Shown: one piece after another, positions 3,241 through 19,334 of the stretch
How the letters are laid out: each line of letters opens with the position of its first letter
Position numbering within the stretch: position 1 is the first letter of the stretch
Virus record (IMG/VR): IMGVR_UViG_3300036853_000221
Location: 1 to 21,034 of that record
Direction: 5' to 3' (one strand)
Length of the DNA: 21,034 bases
Source of the DNA: a virus
Position numbers and translations under genes: made by a program
Notes under the pieces: model-generated
The model's database searches: none
What the model saw: only the letters and a program-made list of their open reading frames with translations
What the model was told of the DNA's origin: nothing

Positions 3241-4257
3241 TCAACGAGAAGCCGCGATCCGCTCAACTTCATCGGCGACGGTGGCGGCGGCGGCGGCCCA
3301 AGTCGGGGCCTGCCATTCCGGCTTGTGGGTGCGGTGCCACTTATACGCCTCTTCCAGCGCCCTCACGACATCCGGCACGTACTGAGCCGCCCACTTCGCC
3401 TCATCCTCCCTTGCCGGGATTGGGAAAGGGATCGCGCCCGCAATGTCGGCGTGGCCGGTGAGGCGATTGGCCACCACGGGTTTACCGCACGCCGCGTATT
3501 CCATCAGGACAAGATTGGTCCCGCCCTCGCAGCGGTTCGGGAAGAGGCCAACGTCGGTGTTGCGCATGGCGGAGGCGAGGGCCGATTGATCCAACTGCGG
3601 CAGGATGGTGAAGCGGTCGCGGGGGATGCCGTTGGCGACGACGATTTCAGTCAGATACTCTTCAACGGACACCTTTTCTTTTAGGAACAGTGGCACTCTC
3701 ATCCCGTCCTGCTGTGCCTGCTTTACGCCATTCACCACGAGTTCAGGCCACGGATTAAACCACGAGCAAACAAGGTGCGCGTCCAGGTGCGTCTTGGCGA
3801 ACTCCGCAAAGGCCCGGATGACCAAATCCTGACCCTTCCTCCACTCGAACTTGCCGCCGCTGAAGATTCGGAAGCAGTCGCGCATCAGGGGGCGGTCGCG
3901 GGGCTTGAAGATGGAGTGATCGACGCCTTGGATCAGCACCTTCGCATTCGTGATTCCGCGCTCGCGACAGCGGTCGAGGCACCACGTTGAGCCGACGAAA
4001 ACGGTGTCGTATCGCTTCGCGTTCTCGGCGGCATTTTCGCCGAGCGGAAACTCAAAGAACGAGTACGCGATGTTGATGATCCCGCGCGTCTGGCTCGCGG
4101 GGTTGAAGTCATGATCAATGAGGGGCATGAACACGACCTCTCCCGCGCATCCAACATCGAAATACTGCATTAGGGCCGTACGCAAATTGGCGTTGCAGGT
4201 CGCCCAGCCGAAGCCTTTCGCGTCTCGTTGGAAACCGGCGTAGTAGAGGGTTTTCAT
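3241..4257 (-). CDS. GT4-family (group 1) glycosyltransferase
   Basis: This 338-residue protein transfers a sugar from a nucleotide-sugar donor to an unknown acceptor. I start it at the ATG at 4257 (MKTLYYAGFQRDAKG), which overlaps the preceding TGA; an ORF start 20 codons upstream would lie inside the neighbouring gene. The GT-B C-terminal half shows FSGGKFEWRKGQDLVIRAF (132-150) at the donor-site beta/alpha unit and CEGGTNLVLMEYAACGKPV (243-261), the acidic E-x-E signature region of GT4 enzymes in the EGGTNL form. Domain length is normal. It closes the five-gene coupled cassette. The sugar and acceptor cannot be read from sequence. Confidence 0.85.
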   Translation of the reverse strand: MKTLYYAGFQRDAKGFGWATCNANLRTALMQYFDVGCAGEVVFMPLIDHDFNPASQTRGIINIAYSFFEFPLGENAAENAKRYDTVFVGSTWCLDRCRERGITNAKVLIQGVDHSIFKPRDRPLMRDCFRIFSGGKFEWRKGQDLVIRAFAEFAKTHLDAHLVCSWFNPWPELVVNGVKQAQQDGMRVPLFLKEKVSVEEYLTEIVVANGIPRDRFTILPQLDQSALASAMRNTDVGLFPNRCEGGTNLVLMEYAACGKPVVANRLTGHADIAGAIPFPIPAREDEAKWAAQYVPDVVRALEEAYKWHRTHKPEWQAPTWAAAAATVADEVERIAASR

Positions 4258-4439
4258 TGGATGCGAGTATTCCTGAATTTGATGTCGCCGCACTTCTTGC
4301 AGCGGAGGTGATAGCAATAATGTTTGGCGACGACATCACCTCCCCATGTTTGGGTTCCAGTGGTAAGCTGTTCGGTATTCCAGTCGTGCCGACACTGCCA
4401 AAATCTCCCGATGAACATTCGATAAAGCCAGCCGATCAT
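4254..4439 (-). CDS. Small zinc-ribbon-like protein, 61 aa
   Basis: Begins MIGWLYRMFIGRFWQCRHDW. Possible metal ligands are C-x-H (about residues 16-18), YCYH (42-45) and the knuckle C-x-x-C in LRCKKCGDIKF (47-54). This spacing fits a single zinc ribbon of the type seen in small phage proteins. Both ends overlap neighbours by ATGA (methyltransferase stop upstream, glycosyltransferase start downstream), so it is a genuine member of the cassette. Its function is unknown; it may assemble with, or regulate, the sugar enzymes. Confidence 0.7.
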   Translation of the reverse strand: MIGWLYRMFIGRFWQCRHDWNTEQLTTGTQTWGGDVVAKHYCYHLRCKKCGDIKFRNTRIQ

Positions 4440-5041
4440 AGTTTTGGTTTCTGCACGGTGAACGCGAAATAAAGGTCAGGCCCGATCGCGAGGTTGATGT
4501 TGATGGAGGTGTAGGTTTCAGCGCCGATAAAGCCCGCGCGCAGGAGAAGCGAGGACCACATGGCGGGCGTCAGCACCGAATAATGATTTTGGTTGTGGCT
4601 GTGGCGGGCAACCGTGTCCGGCGCGGGCATCTCCAGGTAGAGCCAGCCGCCCGGCTTCAGCACGCGGAAGAACTCCGTCAGGGTGAAGAACGGGATCGGC
4701 GAATGCTCGGCGACGTGCCGCGCCCAGACGGCATCAAAGCGCCGATCCCAATCATCCAGCATCTCGTTTTGGTCGCAGGCGATTACCTGAAGGCCAGCCG
4801 CGACACATACCTCCACATCCGCCCCCAGCCCGATCCCCAGCGGACAAAAGCCGTGATCCACGAACCACCGCATCGCCGGGCCTTGGCCGCAGCCAACGTC
4901 CAGCACCAGCGCGCCCGGTGCCAGCTTGGCCGCGAAGTCCCGCGCCTGCCGAGCCGTGAGTTCGGTGTGGAGTTCGGAGGGGGATTCCGGGTAAACGTCG
5001 GCAACGCAGCGGGCCAGGAAGGCGGGGAGGCGGGGGTTCAT
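4436..5041 (-). CDS. Class I SAM-dependent methyltransferase
   Basis: A 201-residue Rossmann-fold methyltransferase (Methyltransf_11/23 type). Motif I is LVLDVGCGQGP (45-55), binding S-adenosylmethionine. The post-motif strand and helix include FDAVWARHVAEHSP (102-115), with the D and the H-V-x-E-H pattern typical of the family. VLKPGGWLYLEMP (127-139) is the late conserved segment. Enzymes of this type next to glycosyltransferases often methylate a sugar or a glycan end. Its place between two glycosyltransferases in an overlapping operon supports that, but the substrate is inferred. Confidence 0.88.
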   Translation of the reverse strand: MNPRLPAFLARCVADVYPESPSELHTELTARQARDFAAKLAPGALVLDVGCGQGPAMRWFVDHGFCPLGIGLGADVEVCVAAGLQVIACDQNEMLDDWDRRFDAVWARHVAEHSPIPFFTLTEFFRVLKPGGWLYLEMPAPDTVARHSHNQNHYSVLTPAMWSSLLLRAGFIGAETYTSININLAIGPDLYFAFTVQKPKL

Positions 5042-5235
5042 GCTTTCCCCGGTGAAAGTGGCGGCGTGTCGGTGCCGGATTCCAGCGACCTGATGCCGCT
5101 AATTTTACCAGCATTCACGAGCGCCAAAAGGCCGTTGCAGTTATCAAGAAGGGCCTCCGAGCTTGTGCATTTCGGAATGTTTTCGAGAATGTGCGTGACG
5201 GCCTTTTGGTAGAGTTCGGTCTGTTCGATTGTCAT
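5038..5235 (-). CDS. Small protein in the glycosylation cassette, 65 aa
   Basis: Starts MTIEQTELYQKAVTHILENI. It is mostly helical in the first 45 residues, with a Ser/Pro-rich tail. It overlaps the TPR-glycosyltransferase stop by ATGA and overlaps the methyltransferase ATG the same way, so both termini are fixed by the coupling pattern. No family is recognised. Two Cys (positions about 23 and 33) are too few and too far apart for a clear metal site. Confidence 0.65.
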   Translation of the reverse strand: MTIEQTELYQKAVTHILENIPKCTSSEALLDNCNGLLALVNAGKISGIRSLESGTDTPPLSPGKA

Positions 5236-6659
5236 AGTGTCCTCAGTTCCCCGTTGATGCGTTGGATGACAGGCGACCAGTCGTCAGCGGTGGGCTGGCG
5301 GAAGAGGCGCATGGTGGGATACCAAGGGGTTGTTTCGCCACTGAGGCCCCAGCGGAAATCTGGTGAGAACGGGATCGCGACAAACACCGGCACCCCCAGC
5401 GCCCCAGCCAAATGCGCGACCGCAGTATCGCAGCAGACAACTGCGTCTAGCTGCCGGACCGCCTGCGCGGTCGCGGCCCAGCTATCGCCAGCGGCGTGGA
5501 TGGCAGGTGCGAGGTCAAGGACGCCACGGAGGCGTGAGACTTCCTTTTCCCGCGGGCCGAGTTGGAGGCTGTAGAATTGGCACTCGGGATGAGCGTCAAT
5601 GATGGGCTGGAATAACTCAGGTTCGAGTGAGCGCCATTTGTCGCGACCGTGATGGCGGCTTCCAGCCCACACAAGGCCGATTTGGCGGCGACCGGTATCT
5701 GGACGCATCATCCCACGAATCTTTTTCCACGGCGTGATTGATGGCACCTCCGGCCAATCCTCCCGCGCCACAATATACGGCACTTCCGCCGGCACAGTCG
5801 CGAGGGTGGTGCCGAAACGGTGCGGCAGCGAGAGAATCGGAATGTGGTAGTGGTATTCGAACGGCTCGCCATCGCGGATCATCCGGCCCCCTTCGTCCGC
5901 CTCGTAAAACACCCCATCCACGCCCGCGCCGAGCATGAGGTCTTGAAGAAGGACGTGGCCGTAGAACCACACCGTTGCGGTCGGCCACTTGGCCTTAATG
6001 ACCCGTGCGTACCGAATCCCCATAATCGCGTCCCCCATCCCTTGCTCCATCGAGAGCACGATCGCCTTGTCGTCCAACGCCTCACCCTGCCAGCCGGGAA
6101 AGATGCTCTTGAGCGGGCGGCTCGGAAAATCCGGCACCTGGAACCGCCATTCATAATCCGCCCACCCGCGCGCGTATTCGCCCAGCGACAGCGCGATCAT
6201 GCCGCGGCTGAAGTGCGCGCCGGGGTCGTTTTCGTTGAGCCGTAGGACGTGCTCGTACTCCGCATCTGCTTCCTCAAACTTCCCCACCTGCCGCAACGTC
6301 TCGGCGAAGTTTAGGCGTGCGGCGTTGTTGTCAGGATCGATCTGAAGCGCCATGTTGAGGGCGATGCAGGCTTTATCAGTCCGCCCCGCCCGATGCATCA
6401 GGACGCCGAAGTTTTGGAGTGCGTCACTGCGTTGCGCCATCGTGGCCCCGGGCGCGCAGATGACCCGCTCGTAAAAGCTCGCCGCCTCCACCATCCGCCA
6501 CGGGTGGAGGGTCTGTTGTTCGATCATTAGACCGATATTGAAGAGGGCCGCGGGGTCGTCCGGCGCCTCATTAGCCACGTAGTCCTTCCAAATCAATTCC
6601 GCCCCGACGTGCTGCCCCTTCCGTCCAAGTTCCTCCGCAAGTTCCAATTCTGAGTTCAT
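5232..6659 (-). CDS. TPR repeat glycosyltransferase (GT9/GT41-like fold)
   Basis: A 475-residue two-part protein. Residues about 35-175 are tetratricopeptide-like repeats (DPAALFNIG..., DALQNFGVLMHRAGRTDKA, NFAETLRQVGKFEEADAEYEHVL, SRGMIALSLGEYARGWADYEW) that usually bind protein partners. The C-terminal part is a GT-B glycosyltransferase: EQGMGDAIMGIRYA (205-218), GLVWAGSRHHGRDKWRSL (328-345), and CCDTAVAHLAGALGVPVFVA (409-428). These are the positions of heptosyltransferase/SPINDLY-like enzymes, and phage or bacterial TPR-glycosyltransferases share this layout. TPR fusion suggests a protein acceptor. It is the first gene of a five-gene coupled cassette, which starts after the hairpin at 6708-6736. 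Confidence 0.88.
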   Translation of the reverse strand: MNSELELAEELGRKGQHVGAELIWKDYVANEAPDDPAALFNIGLMIEQQTLHPWRMVEAASFYERVICAPGATMAQRSDALQNFGVLMHRAGRTDKACIALNMALQIDPDNNAARLNFAETLRQVGKFEEADAEYEHVLRLNENDPGAHFSRGMIALSLGEYARGWADYEWRFQVPDFPSRPLKSIFPGWQGEALDDKAIVLSMEQGMGDAIMGIRYARVIKAKWPTATVWFYGHVLLQDLMLGAGVDGVFYEADEGGRMIRDGEPFEYHYHIPILSLPHRFGTTLATVPAEVPYIVAREDWPEVPSITPWKKIRGMMRPDTGRRQIGLVWAGSRHHGRDKWRSLEPELFQPIIDAHPECQFYSLQLGPREKEVSRLRGVLDLAPAIHAAGDSWAATAQAVRQLDAVVCCDTAVAHLAGALGVPVFVAIPFSPDFRWGLSGETTPWYPTMRLFRQPTADDWSPVIQRINGELRTL

Positions 6660-7415: not shown

Positions 7416-7481
7416 GATCTTTTGCGGTTGTGGATCTGGTAGGTTGATGGATTCGCCGAGTTGGTTGAATCCCTTCACGGG

Positions 7482-9368
7482 TTAGGCGGCGGCAGAATCG
7501 GTCGAAACGTTGAAGGCGAGCGGCTGCCGGACCAGGAAATCCACCATCTCGTTGACGGTGACTTCGATCTGGCCCGACTTCTTGAGCGCGTAGGGATCAA
7601 CGATCAGCGTCCGACCCGCCCAGCGGCCCTGGAGCAACTGTGCCCACACGCCGAAGAACGCGATGTTACCGGTGATCTGATTGGTGCGCTCGTAGCCGTA
7701 GCCGTTGATGTTCCCGTTGTCCTGGATGAGGTACGCGGCGCCGGCCACGGAATCACGCAGGATGGTCTTCCATTTTCCGACGGTCGCGGACGAGAGCGCA
7801 AACTTCATCGTGCCGATGTCGGCATTGTCCACCGCAATGCCTGTCTCGAACTCCACGCAATCGGCCCAAGCCGCGGCACCAGCGAAGGTCACGGTGGCGT
7901 TGATGCCGACAGTATTGGCAACGCCCAGCGGTTCACCCGCACTGCCGCTGCCCTGGAGCCCAGCCGCGTCCACCTTGAGGTTGACGACGGTATCAAGTTC
8001 GTTGCGCGCCCATGCCTCCATCGAAATCGAGGATTGGGCAAGGATCTGAGTGGTGAGGGGGATGGTGGCGCCGACGCGGTGCGGCGTCATGGTCTTGTTG
8101 CCGAAAGTGGCAGCGCTGTCCGTGAGGGCGCCGGTTTCCGAAACCCAATAGGCGGTTGCGCCGCCGGTCTGCACCGGGAAGACGAGATCGCCCTGGAGTC
8201 CGCCCAGCATCGTGATTCCGAGGCGCCCCAGAACAGTCCGGTTGCGGAGAAATTCGATCAAGCCCTGCATTTCATTCGCGACCGTCGCGCCGCCTTCGGC
8301 GAAGATGGAAGCGGATTGCATGGCGCGAGCCATCACCATTGCTTCGAAGCGATCAATCTGGCCTTGGCGCGTAATCTCCACCGGAATCACGAACTCGCCC
8401 TTTTGGGTGAGATCGATCCGCATTTCCTTTTGCGCCGCCTCGCACATGTCCCTTTCGTGACCATCCAGTCTGCCATTGGTGGCCATGTCGCGAATGGCTT
8501 TGAGAACGGAGAAGCGTTTCACTTCCTTTTGCGTCACGCCCGGGATTGTACCGTTCGTATTGACCGGAACCGCCTTGAACTCGCCGACGAAAACCTCGCG
8601 GCAGAAGTCATCGAAAGATTTCCCGCGCTTCTCGCCAGTGAGATATTCCTTCGCCAGCGGGCGAACATCAATGCCGCGTTTAGTGGCGATGGTGTCGCAA
8701 TATTCCTCGAATTGCTTGTGGCGAGCCAGGCCCTCAGTTTCCCATTTGGCGCGTTCCGCCACGAGGTCGATTGTCGTCTTGGCGGGTTCGGTTGCGGGTG
8801 CGTTTTCGGCCATATTCTTTTTGCGGGTTGCTTGCGTTTCGCCTTTTTCTCCCTCCACGTCAATCTCTTTTTGCAAGTCAATTGCATTATCGGCGCGACC
8901 GACGCCGACGGAGCAGTCCGCGGGAATGGTTAGCAGGGAGCCTTCAAAGGGCCGCCAGCCACATCGGAAAATCTGTGTTCCGTCGCTCGTCTTTCCCTCT
9001 TTCTTCATCGAGGTTAGCTCGTAGCCGACGCTCGCATTTCGCAGCACTCCGCTCTTGATGTCCTTCCACCGATCCTCCGCGTCGGCGTTCTCGCCGATCT
9101 TCGCCGTGACGATGAGTTTTCCATTTTCCAGCTTCGCGCTCGTGATGGTGCCGAGATGCTTGGTGCGGTCGTGGCTCCAAAGCAACGGTGCGCCCGCGTG
9201 CATACGGGCGAGATCACAGCCGGCGGGGCTGTGATCCAGGATCTCCATGCCGAAAGAACGCTCATACGGTTCCTCACTGCTGAGGCTTAGCGTCACCGTG
9301 CGTTCGGCTTCGTTGACGGCGCCAAGGTCGAAAGAACCGGAACGGAATAGGAGTTGTGGAATTTTCAT
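7482..9368 (-). CDS. Fused prohead protease - HK97-fold major capsid protein
   Basis: This 628-residue protein joins two functions. Residues about 1-160 are an HK97-type prohead protease (peptidase U35/S78): His in LLWSHDRTKHLGTI (H66), Ser in VLRNASVGYEL (S113), and FEGSLLTIPADCSVG near the end (D151). Residues about 186-628 are the HK97-fold capsid protein: E-loop/P-domain style segments, FLRNRTVLGRLGI, DLVFPVQTGGATAYWVSETGA, TTQILAQSSISMEAW, GSGSAGEPLGVAN. A Lys-rich link (about 165-186) joins them, and an in-frame ATG (8811-8813, MAENAPATEPAK) could start free capsid protein. The protease also cleaves in the fused precursor in related phages (known for the family). Inverted-repeat copy 3 sits in the link. 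Confidence 0.92.
   Translation of the reverse strand: MKIPQLLFRSGSFDLGAVNEAERTVTLSLSSEEPYERSFGMEILDHSPAGCDLARMHAGAPLLWSHDRTKHLGTITSAKLENGKLIVTAKIGENADAEDRWKDIKSGVLRNASVGYELTSMKKEGKTSDGTQIFRCGWRPFEGSLLTIPADCSVGVGRADNAIDLQKEIDVEGEKGETQATRKKNMAENAPATEPAKTTIDLVAERAKWETEGLARHKQFEEYCDTIATKRGIDVRPLAKEYLTGEKRGKSFDDFCREVFVGEFKAVPVNTNGTIPGVTQKEVKRFSVLKAIRDMATNGRLDGHERDMCEAAQKEMRIDLTQKGEFVIPVEITRQGQIDRFEAMVMARAMQSASIFAEGGATVANEMQGLIEFLRNRTVLGRLGITMLGGLQGDLVFPVQTGGATAYWVSETGALTDSAATFGNKTMTPHRVGATIPLTTQILAQSSISMEAWARNELDTVVNLKVDAAGLQGSGSAGEPLGVANTVGINATVTFAGAAAWADCVEFETGIAVDNADIGTMKFALSSATVGKWKTILRDSVAGAAYLIQDNGNINGYGYERTNQITGNIAFFGVWAQLLQGRWAGRTLIVDPYALKKSGQIEVTVNEMVDFLVRQPLAFNVSTDSAAA
8873..8885. repeat. 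Inverted repeat GCAA-N5-TTGC, copy 3 (within coding)
   Basis: GCAAGTCAATTGC. It lies in the linker-coding part of the protease-capsid gene, about 60 bases before the internal ATG of the capsid part. Unlike the other copies it is inside a gene, but it is close to the boundary of the two functional units. Confidence 0.4.
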
Positions 9369-15382: not shown

Positions 15383-16141
15383 CTAGGGGTGGTCAGTGGC
15401 TGCCCAATACCCTCCATGCGAGCGCCACCACTGCTGGAACTTGTCCGTTGCCAATGGCGCGATTGCTGTCCACTCGATTGGCCACCCCATGAGCCACTCC
15501 AGAAATCTCGGGTTCGGCGGTTCTCGCCGGCCACAACGCGCGGCCAGTAGTGAGCGCAGCCTGATATAAGTATTTTTCACCGACTCTCCGGATAGCCACC
15601 TCTGAACCTCCCGCATCTCCGATTGGCCTGCTGGCTTGGAGTCGTTTGCCGTTGGCGTGTGCCAGTAAAAACAGCCTCTCCCGTGAATGTGGGGCACCGA
15701 TGGAGCACGCAGAAAACACTCCCCATTTCGCATTATACCCCAATCCGGAAAGGGAGGACAGAACATCTCCCATTCCCCGTCTAGGCAACTCTGGGGAGTT
15801 CTCCACGAAGACGTAACTAGGTCTAATTTCGTAAACCACTCGCGCCATCTGGGTCCACAGGCCGCTTGATTTTCCAACGATTCCTTCGCGCGAGCCAACT
15901 GCGCTGATGTTCTGACAAGGAAATCCCCCGCAGACGACATCCACTCGTCCACGCCAGGGCTTTCCATCGAAAGTTCGGACATCATCCCAGATAGGGAAGG
16001 GAGGGAGGATTCGGTCTCTCTGGCGTTGCAGCAGCACTCGGCGGCAGTAGGGCTCGATCTCGACAGCACAGACGCAGGTATGGCCGAGAAGCACTCCGCC
16101 GAGGATTCCTCCCCCTGCTCCAGCAAAAAGGTGTAGCTCAT
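15383..16141 (-). CDS. Full-length overlapping ORF in the +1 frame of the DNA methyltransferase gene
   Basis: A second open frame of 252 codons lies on the same strand inside the methyltransferase gene; its ATG is four bases further on (ATGAATGAG holds both starts). It begins MSYTFLLEQGEESSAECF and is rich in Cys, Trp, Ser and Glu. Segments SSWRTPQ (111-117), WGIMRNGECF (134-143), WHTPTANDSK (160-169), NPRFLEWLMGWPIEWT (210-225) and LATDKFQQWWRSHGG (230-244) look like a conserved protein, not random translation. I recall similar hypothetical proteins in phages, which is unverified. It may be a dual-coding gene or a frame kept open by codon bias. Confidence 0.45.
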   Translation of the reverse strand: MSYTFLLEQGEESSAECFSAIPASVLSRSSPTAAECCCNARETESSLPSLSGMMSELSMESPGVDEWMSSAGDFLVRTSAQLARAKESLENQAACGPRWREWFTKLDLVTSSWRTPQSCLDGEWEMFCPPFPDWGIMRNGECFLRAPSVPHIHGRGCFYWHTPTANDSKPAGQSEMREVQRWLSGESVKNTYIRLRSLLAARCGRREPPNPRFLEWLMGWPIEWTAIAPLATDKFQQWWRSHGGYWAATDHP

Positions 16142-16145
16142 TCAT
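15393..16145 (-). CDS. dcm: C5 cytosine DNA methyltransferase
   Basis: A 250-residue DNA (cytosine-5) methyltransferase, which transfers a methyl group from S-adenosylmethionine. Motif I is LHLFAGAGGG (4-13), motif IV is GGFPCQNIS with the catalytic Cys77, motif VI is VFVENSP (ENS in place of the usual ENV), motif VIII is SRERLFLLAH (154-163), and motif X is AIGNGQVPAVVALAWRV (230-246). The region between VIII and X is short, so the target-recognition domain is small and the recognition site unknown. It is last in the early transcript and probably protects phage DNA from host restriction. The ATG is coupled to a 32-aa ORF. No partner nuclease is seen. Confidence 0.93.
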   Translation of the reverse strand: MNELHLFAGAGGGILGGVLLGHTCVCAVEIEPYCRRVLLQRQRDRILPPFPIWDDVRTFDGKPWRGRVDVVCGGFPCQNISAVGSREGIVGKSSGLWTQMARVVYEIRPSYVFVENSPELPRRGMGDVLSSLSGLGYNAKWGVFSACSIGAPHSRERLFLLAHANGKRLQASRPIGDAGGSEVAIRRVGEKYLYQAALTTGRALWPARTAEPEISGVAHGVANRVDSNRAIGNGQVPAVVALAWRVLGSH

Positions 16146-16240
16146 TTGGGTCGGTTGGGATTATCGCCCGTCAACGACGCCCCAGGGCCGTGCTGGCCCC
16201 GGGGGCGCCCCGCATCGGCGGTAACGCGCCGGAAGGTCAT
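16142..16240 (-). CDS. 32-aa micro-ORF between helicase and methyltransferase
   Basis: The ATG at 16240 overlaps the helicase TGA as ATGA, and its TGA (16144-16142) overlaps the methyltransferase ATG at 16145, again ATGA. The peptide reads MTFRRVTADAGRPRGQHGP followed by a Gly/Pro/Asn-rich tail, basic and low in hydrophobic residues. The precise fit in the only gap between two certain genes, with the same overlap on both sides, is the argument for it. The composition suggests disorder. Confidence 0.5.
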   Translation of the reverse strand: MTFRRVTADAGRPRGQHGPGASLTGDNPNRPK

Positions 16241-17532
16241 GGCACCACCTCGCGGTAGTCGAACCGGGTCAGGTCCGGGTTGAATTTCAGGCAAAGGTCA
16301 ATGTGGCGCTGGCCCTCGCGTTGCTTCCAGACCGTGACGCGCCCGGGCTCCGGCTCGTCCTTGCCTTCGAGCGGGTGGATTTTGATGAGGGCAGAGGCGT
16401 CGTTCTCGGCGTCTTGGGCCTCTCGTGTCCCGCCGTCCTTGTTTACCTGTGAGGGCAGACACACAATGCATTCGAGTTCACCAGCCAGCAGCTTTGCCCC
16501 TTGGGTGATCTCCGCGATCTGCAGTTGTTTCCGCTCATGCCGACCGTTGCTCTGCACGAGCTGCAGGTAATCGATGAGGATGAAGGTAAAGGGCTTGCGG
16601 GCGTGTTCCTGCCGAATGTCGTTGCGGATCTGGTCCCAACGGAAAAGGTCATCCCGCAGATGAATGTCCAGCGCCGCCAGCGCCCGGGCCGTCTCCACAA
16701 ACTCCCCCACGATCTTCGTCGCATACTCGGACGCCACCGGCTTGCCGATGTTCTCCTTGGCGATCTTCCGCACGAAATCCGCATTGTGCCCGCCCATCTG
16801 CGCAATCGCCCGCTTCATCACCTGCCGCTGGGCCATTTCGAGCGGGTAGAGGGCGATGCGGTGTTGATGTTTGGCGAGCGAATAGCTGATCTGCGTCCCG
16901 AGGGCTGTTTTGCCGCAGGAGGTGGGGGCGGTGATGATGAGGAGGTCTCCACGGTAGAGTTTGAGCCGCCCATGAATCCCCTCCATCGGCACCGGCACCA
17001 AGCCGCTGTCGTCCCGCCCTTCCCTCACCTCGTCCACGATGCTCTGCAGGACTTCGCGATGATTCGGCCGGCGGGTCCGGGTCTGCAGGAGTTGCCCTAG
17101 CGCCCCGTGCGCTGCCGCCACGGCCTCTAGCGGCTCGCTTCCGTCGTAAAGCTCAGTGGTGAGGCGAATCGCGGTCTGCAGCGCGGCGCGGGCGCGGGAC
17201 TTCTCGAGTACGGTTTCCGCGTAGGCTTTGACGTTCGCTGCAGAGGGGACAAAAAAATACAGGTCGCTGACGTACGCCGCGCCCCCGGCCTTTTCGAGAT
17301 TACCCTCGTCACGCAGTTTGCTGCCGAGCGTGATGATGTCCAACGGACCGTTGCCATCCACGATACTGCAGGCGGTCTCGAAAATAATCCGATGCGCGGC
17401 GAGGTTGAAGTCCCGACCGTCCAGATCCCACCGACTACAGCACGCCCGCACGTCCTGCGGGGCGAGCAACAAAGACGCCAACACGCCTTTCTCAGCGTCG
17501 TTATCCTGTGGGAATGCGCGGGTCTCGCTCAC
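16237..17532 (-). CDS. dnaB: DnaB-family replicative helicase
   Basis: This 431-residue hexameric helicase unwinds the replication fork. The N-terminal primase-interaction half (1-150) includes NDAEKGVLASLLL and ITLGSKLRDEGNLEKAGG. The RecA core has Walker A TAPTSCGKTAL (201-211), LEM (231-233), Walker B FILIDYLQLV (317-326), the SQVNK segment (361-365), and WKQREGQ (402-408), the arginine-finger-type end motif. The start is GTG at 17532, overlapping the TGA of the replication protein gene (GTGA). Length is close to bacterial DnaB, so it may replace host DnaB at phage forks. Confidence 0.93.
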   Translation of the reverse strand: MSETRAFPQDNDAEKGVLASLLLAPQDVRACCSRWDLDGRDFNLAAHRIIFETACSIVDGNGPLDIITLGSKLRDEGNLEKAGGAAYVSDLYFFVPSAANVKAYAETVLEKSRARAALQTAIRLTTELYDGSEPLEAVAAAHGALGQLLQTRTRRPNHREVLQSIVDEVREGRDDSGLVPVPMEGIHGRLKLYRGDLLIITAPTSCGKTALGTQISYSLAKHQHRIALYPLEMAQRQVMKRAIAQMGGHNADFVRKIAKENIGKPVASEYATKIVGEFVETARALAALDIHLRDDLFRWDQIRNDIRQEHARKPFTFILIDYLQLVQSNGRHERKQLQIAEITQGAKLLAGELECIVCLPSQVNKDGGTREAQDAENDASALIKIHPLEGKDEPEPGRVTVWKQREGQRHIDLCLKFNPDLTRFDYREVVP

Positions 17533-18263: not shown

Positions 18264-18670
18264 AATTTTGAAAGCATGTCGAAAATGGCGGCGAATTTAG
18301 CGGTCGCCTCCGCTTCGCTGATGGGAGCGCCGGGGGCTGGCGCTGTCTCGGGTTCGAGTGGTTCGGGCGGCTCTGGATCGGGAATGGGCTCAGATGCGCC
18401 CTCTTCCATTTCCCACGCTTGGAAAGCTGCAGCGTCGCGCTCATGCACCAGCCGGTGACACGGCGAATCGCAGAGCGGAATGAGGCACCAGTCGGGATAT
18501 TGCCACATCATCCGCCAACCGACGTAGTAGCGGTGGTGGACCTGCAGGAATGGCGTCACCTTTCGGCAGTGCTGGCACGTGCTGCCGTATTTCTCGATGA
18601 TGTACGCGCGCTTCCGCAACCACTTCGGGTGGCGTAGCTGCTCATCTCTCGTTAGCCATTTCTGACTCAT
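18260..18670 (-). CDS. HNH nuclease-like protein
   Basis: A 136-residue protein starting at the ATG at 18670 (MSQKWLTRDEQLRHPKW), which overlaps the TGA of the SPOUT gene. The ORF extends upstream but that part is in the neighbour. The HNH fold shows C32-x-x-C35 (TCQHCRKVTP), the His pair LQVHHRYYVG (45-46), and C67...C71-H72-x3-H76 (LCDSPCHRLVH), all probable metal or catalytic positions. The C-terminal 55 residues are Glu/Pro-rich and probably disordered. HNH proteins next to phage replication genes may cut or process DNA; free-standing homing is also possible. Confidence 0.82.
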   Translation of the reverse strand: MSQKWLTRDEQLRHPKWLRKRAYIIEKYGSTCQHCRKVTPFLQVHHRYYVGWRMMWQYPDWCLIPLCDSPCHRLVHERDAAAFQAWEMEEGASEPIPDPEPPEPLEPETAPAPGAPISEAEATAKFAAIFDMLSKL

Positions 18671-19131
18671 AAATCCTTGCCCTCCCCCTCCCTTCCGCTG
18701 GGGGCAGGGCTTTTGCAAAGGCGGTCGTACAGGACCACATTCACGGCCGCGGCCAAGTTCATGCAATGGGCGGTCGGAACAAAAACCACGTCCCGGCACC
18801 ACGAAATCACTTCCTCGTTCAAGGTCCGATCCTCCCCGCCGAAAATGTAGAAGGCGCGCTCGGGATGCTGATAGGTCGGCAATGGCCTCGCATTCGGCAG
18901 CAAGTCCACCGCGACCGGCACGCAGCCTTTTGGGATCACGGAGCGCAGATCGTCCACTTCCAGAAACGGAATGTGTTTCCAGGCCCGTTGCGTGTCGGTG
19001 CAGGCGTGGCCGTAGCGTTTACCCGACACGACGATCATATCCGCGTCATAGCAGCCGCAGGCGCGCAACACCGAGCCGATGTTTTTGGCGTCCTTCGGTT
19101 GATGAAGGCCGATGCAAGCGAAACCCCTCAC
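18667..19131 (-). CDS. SPOUT (SpoU/TrmL-like) RNA ribose 2'-O-methyltransferase
   Basis: A 154-residue methyltransferase of the alpha/beta-knot superfamily. The start is GTG at 19131 (MRGFACIGLHQPKDAKN), overlapping the upstream TGA. Motif 1 is NIGSVLRACG (17-26), motif 2 is YIFGGEDRTLNEEV (95-108), and motif 3 is FVPTAHCMNLAAAVNVVL (117-134), which together form the knot that binds S-adenosylmethionine. Length matches TrmL-like proteins without an added RNA-binding domain. A phage copy is rare; a substrate such as a tRNA anticodon loop is plausible but inferred. The tail after 140 is charged and low in complexity. Confidence 0.87.
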   Translation of the reverse strand: MRGFACIGLHQPKDAKNIGSVLRACGCYDADMIVVSGKRYGHACTDTQRAWKHIPFLEVDDLRSVIPKGCVPVAVDLLPNARPLPTYQHPERAFYIFGGEDRTLNEEVISWCRDVVFVPTAHCMNLAAAVNVVLYDRLCKSPAPSGREGEGKDL

Positions 19132-19334
19132 GCCCCACCCCCCTCTCGGGTCGCGGCAGCGGCAGGCTCTTCTTCCTTCGCCTTGGCGGCAATTCTGTCG
19201 GCAAGCGTCCTGAAGGCATCGCAAATCTCACTCCATATCTCGCGAGTGTGATCGTGACCTTCGGCGTCGTTGTATCGCTCGGCGTATTCGCCAGCGACAT
19301 CTCGGATGCATTCGATAATAGATTCAGCCTTCAT
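19128..19334 (-). CDS. Small acidic protein, 68 aa
   Basis: Starts MKAESIIECIRDVAGEYAER. It is mostly helical through residue 50, with an Ala/Gly-rich tail (AAAATREGGGA). It overlaps neighbours at both ends (GTGA and ATGA), so it belongs to the coupled early block. No family is recognised. Confidence 0.6.
   Translation of the reverse strand: MKAESIIECIRDVAGEYAERYNDAEGHDHTREIWSEICDAFRTLADRIAAKAKEEEPAAAATREGGGA

Follow-up and report, generated by a model that had tools for sequence, protein, structure and literature searches.

Two overlapping reading frames at one locus

The DNA analysed here (the window, 21,034 nt) comes from a virus record and encodes terminase, portal and head proteins (PHROG matches) elsewhere along its length; it is therefore a fragment of a tailed-phage genome. 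On its minus strand, about 760 bases carry two open reading frames (ORFs), here called alpha and beta, that overlap almost entirely and are both started by ATG (Table 1). The start codons lie 4 nt apart and the stops 10 nt apart, and the coordinates confirm the preliminary description of a methylase gene accompanied on the same strand by an ORF in its +1 frame. All four peptides quoted in that description were located in beta.

The upstream 50-codon ORF has a possible internal ATG at 16240, which overlaps the helicase stop as ATGA. The TGA at 16144-16142, within the tandem start, falls in the beta frame. No clear Shine-Dalgarno sequence was seen upstream of the start in the window. Translational coupling from the 50-codon ORF to alpha and beta is possible, as an inference only.

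Table 1. Features of the overlapping gene pair, its neighbours and the one-shift relatives (window coordinates unless a locus is named)
Feature	Position	Strand	Remarks
Alpha ORF	15393..16145	-	250 aa; C5-cytosine methyltransferase chain with motifs I, IV, VI, VIII and X, without motif IX
Beta ORF	15383..16141	-	252 aa; +1 frame of alpha; holds recognition region and motif IX
Tandem start ATGAATGAG	16137..16145	-	Alpha ATG 16145-16143; beta ATG 16141-16139
Upstream 50-codon ORF	16142..16294	-	Its own TGA overlaps the alpha ATG
DnaB-like replicative helicase gene	16237..17532	-	Upstream neighbour; phrog_19, 4e-59
Alpha residues 1-162, motifs I-VIII	15660..16145	-	Mainly the alpha frame constrained; confidently folded (predicted), like M.HhaI and M.HaeIII
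Beta residues 1-94	15860..16141	-	Predicted without structure; stop-free; some protein-level constraint at 3-72, none at 72-95
Beta residues 95-162 (SSWRTPQ, PDWGIMRNG)	15656..15859	-	Both frames constrained, most clearly at codons 95-140
Beta WHTPTANDSK	15635..15664	-	(W/L)PTPxAxD element directly after motif VIII
Alpha residues 176-224	15474..15620	-	Predicted disordered, pLDDT under 50; out-of-frame reading of the beta recognition/IX region
Beta motif-IX-like stretch NPRFLEWLMGWPIEWT	15467..15514	-	Matches Spartoi single chain 299-332, hhalign E 2.5e-6
Alpha motif X RAIGNGQVP	15435..15461	-	Begins 6 nt past the beta motif IX stretch
One-shift split methylases (Vash, TiroTheta9, Geodirt)	L007 875-1931; L008 806-1901; L182 858-2079		

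The alpha chain

Alpha matches the catalytic family PF00145 of Pfam (2.3e-32) over profile positions 3-168 of 324 and, among the PHROGs, phrog_363 (1.1e-66). Motifs I, IV (GGFPCQ), VI (VENSP), VIII (GAPHSRERLFLLA) and X (RAIGNGQVP) were located in it; with catalytic motifs I, IV, VI and VIII in one chain, alpha meets the criterion for a C5-cytosine DNA methyltransferase. Motif X, which lies beyond the Pfam match and was assigned by pattern, is conserved in 61 sequences. Motif IX is absent from this chain, which holds I-VIII, and is found in beta instead. The structural model of alpha has an HhaI-like fold at residues 1-169 and a C-terminal helix that carries motif X. The match to M.HhaI and M.HaeIII extends only through motif VIII; these enzymes share the fold of alpha 1-169 but contain their own recognition domain and motif IX in a single chain, and no match to beta was found in sequence or in fold. 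Apart from stop avoidance, alpha residues 176-224 are under no constraint.

The beta chain

Beta matches phrog_1008 (1.6e-22) and two short PHROGs of unknown function. PHROG 1008 is an existing phage family labelled 'DNA methyltransferase' (329 positions), yet beta has no match to the catalytic PF00145 or to any other Pfam family, and neither have the other beta chains. Its best-conserved residues are T115, P132-W134-G135, G140, G158-T162-P163 and P211..E215..M218-G219.P221..W224, the last of which (P211 to W224) is the pattern of motif IX. The (W/L)PTPxAxD element of beta also follows motif VIII in single-chain enzymes, there in frame. It resembles the TL motif of recognition domains, published as P(STCA)PT(ILV)(TASV) (PMC2413257), without matching it exactly. 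The region between VIII and IX can be expanded: in some relatives (L012-L016) it contains repeated PTP elements, five of them in L014, and both frames remain open across about 320-350 codons.

When the window was concatenated with the frame switched, the Pfam score was not raised (111.7 versus 113.2 bits), and the only gain against the PHROGs was a longer coverage of PHROG 116. Because of this lack of Pfam gain, the assignment of motif IX rests on the conserved pattern and on the single-chain relatives. A regular expression for motif IX matched the +1 frame in 238 of the fetched loci, the alpha frame in 4 and the +2 frame in 1; it had no match in 21 fetched loci with alpha, and one locus was without alpha. 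Two of the alpha-frame cases and the +2 case (L167, L241 and L264) were considered as further frame arrangements and set aside, as they look like single-base indels, decayed copies or sequencing error.

Modelled alone, beta is predicted to fold poorly (mean pLDDT 59). Nothing was found when its profile was searched against PDB sequences and its model against PDB folds, or when the Vash beta chain was searched against PDB sequences. A poor predicted fold without a PDB match fits a chain that depends on a partner, without showing it.

The second frame is kept open beyond chance

When the alpha codons of the window alone are shuffled synonymously, 8% of trials leave the +1 frame open; a single window is thus weak evidence, and relatives are needed. 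We retrieved 80 viral contigs with the alpha profile only and, with the window added, analysed 81 loci. All 80 retrieved contigs have an open +1 frame across essentially the entire gene; the stops usually seen in it are the TGA that the alpha start forms and another close to the end. In 77 of the 81 loci the core contains no +1 stop, for which the mean probability in shuffles is 0.007 with 4.5 stops expected, whereas the +2 frame of the same loci averages 14 stops. As a control, only 2 of 145 other ORFs of at least 180 aa on the same contigs are open in +1. An open frame arising by chance from base composition is thus ruled out by the shuffles, the +2 frame and the control ORFs.

The preliminary description had proposed a codon-by-codon comparison of homologues and an inspection of the second frame in distant relatives, and both were carried out. 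Among pairs of relatives, in the part of the gene where alpha is the constrained frame, none of 2018 changes at fourfold-degenerate third positions of alpha creates a beta stop, against about 98 expected; a rerun with independent pairs gave 0 of 944 such alpha-silent changes. In distant relatives, from a Leptospira plasmid, Microcystis, Bacteroides, Mycobacterium and Paenibacillus phages and a Nostoc plasmid, the +1 frame remains open for 180-285 codons. The outcomes named beforehand as refuting, namely second-frame stops in most homologues or a substitution pattern fitting the methylase only, were sought and neither was found. Alpha and beta are a conserved, same-strand overlapping gene pair, in which the second frame is open and is selected beyond what the first imposes.

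The constrained frame switches along the gene

Substitution rates at alpha codon positions 1/2/3 were obtained from 73 close pairs of genes. Before motif IV they are.107/.040/.237 and from motif IV to VIII.156/.095/.308, which is the pattern of an ordinary gene in the alpha frame. From VIII to IX the rates are.316/.231/.199, and in the 20 codons preceding X they are.191/.092/.095; from VIII to X the fastest position is therefore position 1 of alpha, that is, position 3 of beta. From X to the end the alpha pattern is seen again (.145/.137/.336). When each gene was used once, the pattern was of the alpha type before VIII in 58 of 58 pairs and of the beta type between VIII and X in 40 of 52. The other 12 of these 52 independent pairs lack the beta signature and count against a two-chain model. 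Aggregated P values rest on related sequences, and the rerun with one use per gene is the safer version.

In the beta-constrained stretch no alpha stop occurs in any of 121 genes, for which the mean shuffled chance is 9%. Against a null that excluded stops, codons 3-72 and 95-140 show an excess of conservative beta changes, and no such excess was detected at codons 72-95 or 140-162. This null applies one substitution spectrum to all contexts, so its P values are approximate. Because the alpha frame dominates upstream of VIII, part of the similarity among beta N termini is imposed by alpha.

The tandem start is conserved

Codons 2-3 of alpha are AATGAG or CGTGAG in most of 137 distinct genes. 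Codon 2 is AAC in only 2; nearly always it is AAT (116) or CGT (10), followed by GAG or GAA, and as a consequence an ATG or GTG sits four bases after the alpha start. AAT thus accounts for 116 of the 118 asparagine codons at this position, compared with 39% for asparagine elsewhere in these genes. Where the first aligned codon of alpha is not a start (TTA, CTT or CTA), the beta start is mostly still present. In 117 of 138 genes a beta-frame stop is created by the alpha start, and many of these genes have an upstream ORF that terminates at it; re-initiation after this stop is a possible way of reaching both starts, which we infer only.

Relatives with one frame or a single shift

In two relatives, Rothia phage Spartoi gp40 (365 aa) and Mycobacterium prophage prophi104-2 gp17 (416 aa), motifs I-VIII, the PTP elements, IX and X all lie in one frame. 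The PTP elements are followed by EWMMG.P.GW or EWMQG.P.GW (motif IX) and then by IGNGVVPQQA. Residues 12-197 of Spartoi gp40 match the alpha profile (1.7e-32) and residues 299-332 the beta profile (2.5e-6). By BLASTP the Spartoi chain matches both gp78 of TiroTheta9 and the frame of its gp77, and prophi104-2 gp17 has matches to each of the two Geodirt chains. Alpha matches PHROG 116 over its positions 211-380, and the Vash beta chain matches it over 409-497. These two proteins and PHROG 116 have the motifs of the window in the same order, but in one chain and one frame.

An arrangement with a single shift is found in TiroTheta9 gp78/gp77, Vash 32/33 and Geodirt, where beta holds both IX and X. 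These genes are annotated as two neighbours in Vash and TiroTheta9, and the Geodirt annotation covers only the beta part.

The single-chain prophi104-2 gene (L183) retains a beta-like N-terminal reading in its +1 frame at 970-1419 (YSETWPTSGTTRNG...LLPTPRATDGTKGG), as if it had been re-fused from a two-frame gene.

Proposed: one methyltransferase in two chains

In this group of loci both frames are open and conserved, the tandem start is fixed, the constrained frame switches along the gene, and single-chain relatives carry the same parts in frame. We interpret the locus as encoding one C5-cytosine DNA methyltransferase made as two chains from the same DNA, a reading to which we give a probability of roughly 0.85, its translation, assembly and activity being inferred. 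Ribosomes would begin at either of the two start codons, four bases apart. Alpha would contribute the catalytic and AdoMet-binding part (I-VIII) together with motif X, and beta would contribute what separates VIII from X in an ordinary enzyme, that is, target recognition and IX. The order on the DNA would remain the ordinary one, I-VIII (alpha), recognition and IX (beta) and X (alpha), as though a segment had been shifted by +1 and then back. Each chain would read its partner's segment out of frame, probably as filler or linker, and the two are proposed to assemble in trans into the active enzyme. That both chains are translated and needed, that they assemble and are active, and which sequence they recognize are likewise inferences. 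The constrained beta codons 3-72 have no role within this two-chain model.

The preliminary description had left two explanations standing: one gene making two proteins, for example a methylase and a partner, or conserved methylase codons fixing the other frame. The former is supported by the beta-frame constraint from VIII to X, the fixed beta start and the avoidance of beta stops, and the partner is most likely the methylase's own missing part. The latter had to be rejected as the main cause, since from VIII to X beta is conserved better than alpha, the beta start is fixed and beta stops are avoided.

Programmed double frameshifting, in which translation starts on alpha, shifts by +1 after VIII and returns before X to give one ordinary chain, is improbable, although it survives better than the other alternatives. 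The DNA order is exactly that of an ordinary enzyme, IX and X are only 6 nt apart and single-chain relatives are known, all of which it would accommodate. It needs neither a fixed beta start nor stop-free beta codons 1-95, however, and both are kept; a message that needs one shift forward and one back would also be unusual.

Slightly less probable still is that both proteins are made and beta does another job outside the methylase, for example in inhibition, counter-defence or regulation. Such a job could account for the N-terminal beta constraint, which a role in recognition and motif IX does not explain, and would suit a chain that by itself has no structural match. It would leave alpha without the motif IX that beta contains, and it disregards both the beta segment that single-chain methylases carry in frame at the corresponding position and the precedent of M.EcoHK31I.

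That alpha alone is made, with methylase codons and base composition passively keeping the second frame open and similar, draws on the dominance of the alpha frame in substitutions upstream of VIII and on the 8% shuffle chance in the window, but we consider it very improbable, because from VIII to X it is beta that is constrained, no beta stops arise at alpha-silent changes where about 98 were expected, the AAT codon that creates the beta ATG is fixed, single-chain homologues carry the beta segment in frame and alpha by itself lacks motif IX.

Comparison with known split methylases

The beta chain of M.EcoHK31I is also read in an alternative frame within the alpha gene; it is shorter (about 176 aa) and begins inside alpha, whereas the two starts in the window lie within 4 nt and the overlap is near-complete. 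M.EaeI is similar to M.EcoHK31I. In M.EcoHK31I (YGGCCR), which has served as a naturally split methylase (PMC3439449), the larger chain contains I-VIII, X and a predicted recognition domain and the smaller polypeptide contains IX only (PMC3404938). The window likewise has I-VIII and X on the large chain and IX on the second. Its recognition region differs: the stretch from VIII to IX is constrained in beta, and alpha is predicted to be disordered there. The locus can therefore be said to work like M.EcoHK31I without being a member of that type, because the criterion of a recognition domain in the large chain fails. M.AquI (CYCGRG) has two subunits, with I-VIII on one and IX on the other, the small subunit also carrying X (PMC3404938). 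I-VIII and IX are thus on separate chains as in the window, but X is on the small subunit instead of on alpha. The split in TiroTheta9 gp78/77 and Vash 32/33, with IX and X together on the small chain, is nearer to M.AquI. In laboratory work on M.HaeIII, frame-shifted versions of the gene were partly bypassed to function (PMC3812077), and by analogy such a bypass is a plausible route to the first shift.

As far as found, the arrangement has been described before for one bacterial enzyme; literature searches, of partial coverage, returned no account of such an arrangement in phages. Three features appear to be new: the tandem starts with their near-complete overlap, the location of the recognition region in beta and the spread over phages and prophages of many phyla.

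Distribution and implications

The beta of the window has matches in 62 phage records, the TiroTheta9 frame in 560 and the Paenibacillus frame in 70. IMG/VR contains at least 444 candidate beta-like stretches. A further 135 beta-like matches lie in bacterial and archaeal genome contigs, two archaeal bins included, among them Pseudomonas, Acinetobacter, Chromobacterium, Akkermansia, Opitutales, Myxococcus and Patescibacteria; others are in eight plasmids, and one subgroup is present in 4 of 5426 complete E. coli genomes. All these counts refer to beta-like sequence, and the relation of the frames was checked only in the loci screened with the motif-IX expression. In the records that were opened, usually one of the two frames is annotated; some Paenibacillus phages annotate both, as nested genes.

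It is conceivable, and we suggest it only tentatively, that these genes form an extensive and old class of phage and prophage methylases, for the most part unannotated, whose catalytic and recognition parts are encoded in two frames from one tandem start pair. The recognition chain, being made apart, might then be exchanged, multiplied or dosed independently.

Same-strand, near-complete overlaps of 230-350 codons with assignable roles for both proteins are rare, and this one turns up repeatedly in phages, prophages and plasmids from many bacterial phyla. How two frames share selection can be tested cleanly here, in that the constrained frame changes at known domain borders and single-frame relatives are available for comparison. 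Current annotation of such enzymes misses half of their parts, and expression of only the annotated chain should be expected to fail. The tandem start lends itself naturally to studies of start choice and subunit ratio.

Other reading frames in the window

Several further ORFs in the window were assigned by reading the sequence. A 185-aa ORF (18667-19224, minus strand) resembles SpoU/TrmH-type RNA 2'-O-methyltransferases by reading only, which is unusual for a phage; it has no PHROG match at 0.001. Three minus-strand ORFs are interspersed with structural genes: one at 3241-4317 that is glycosyltransferase-like, a small one at 4436-5041 that is methyltransferase-like, and one at 5232-6659 for a TPR-like protein of 475 aa. 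A 490-aa ORF on the plus strand (7461-8933), opposite the major head protein gene, is probably an antisense artefact of composition.
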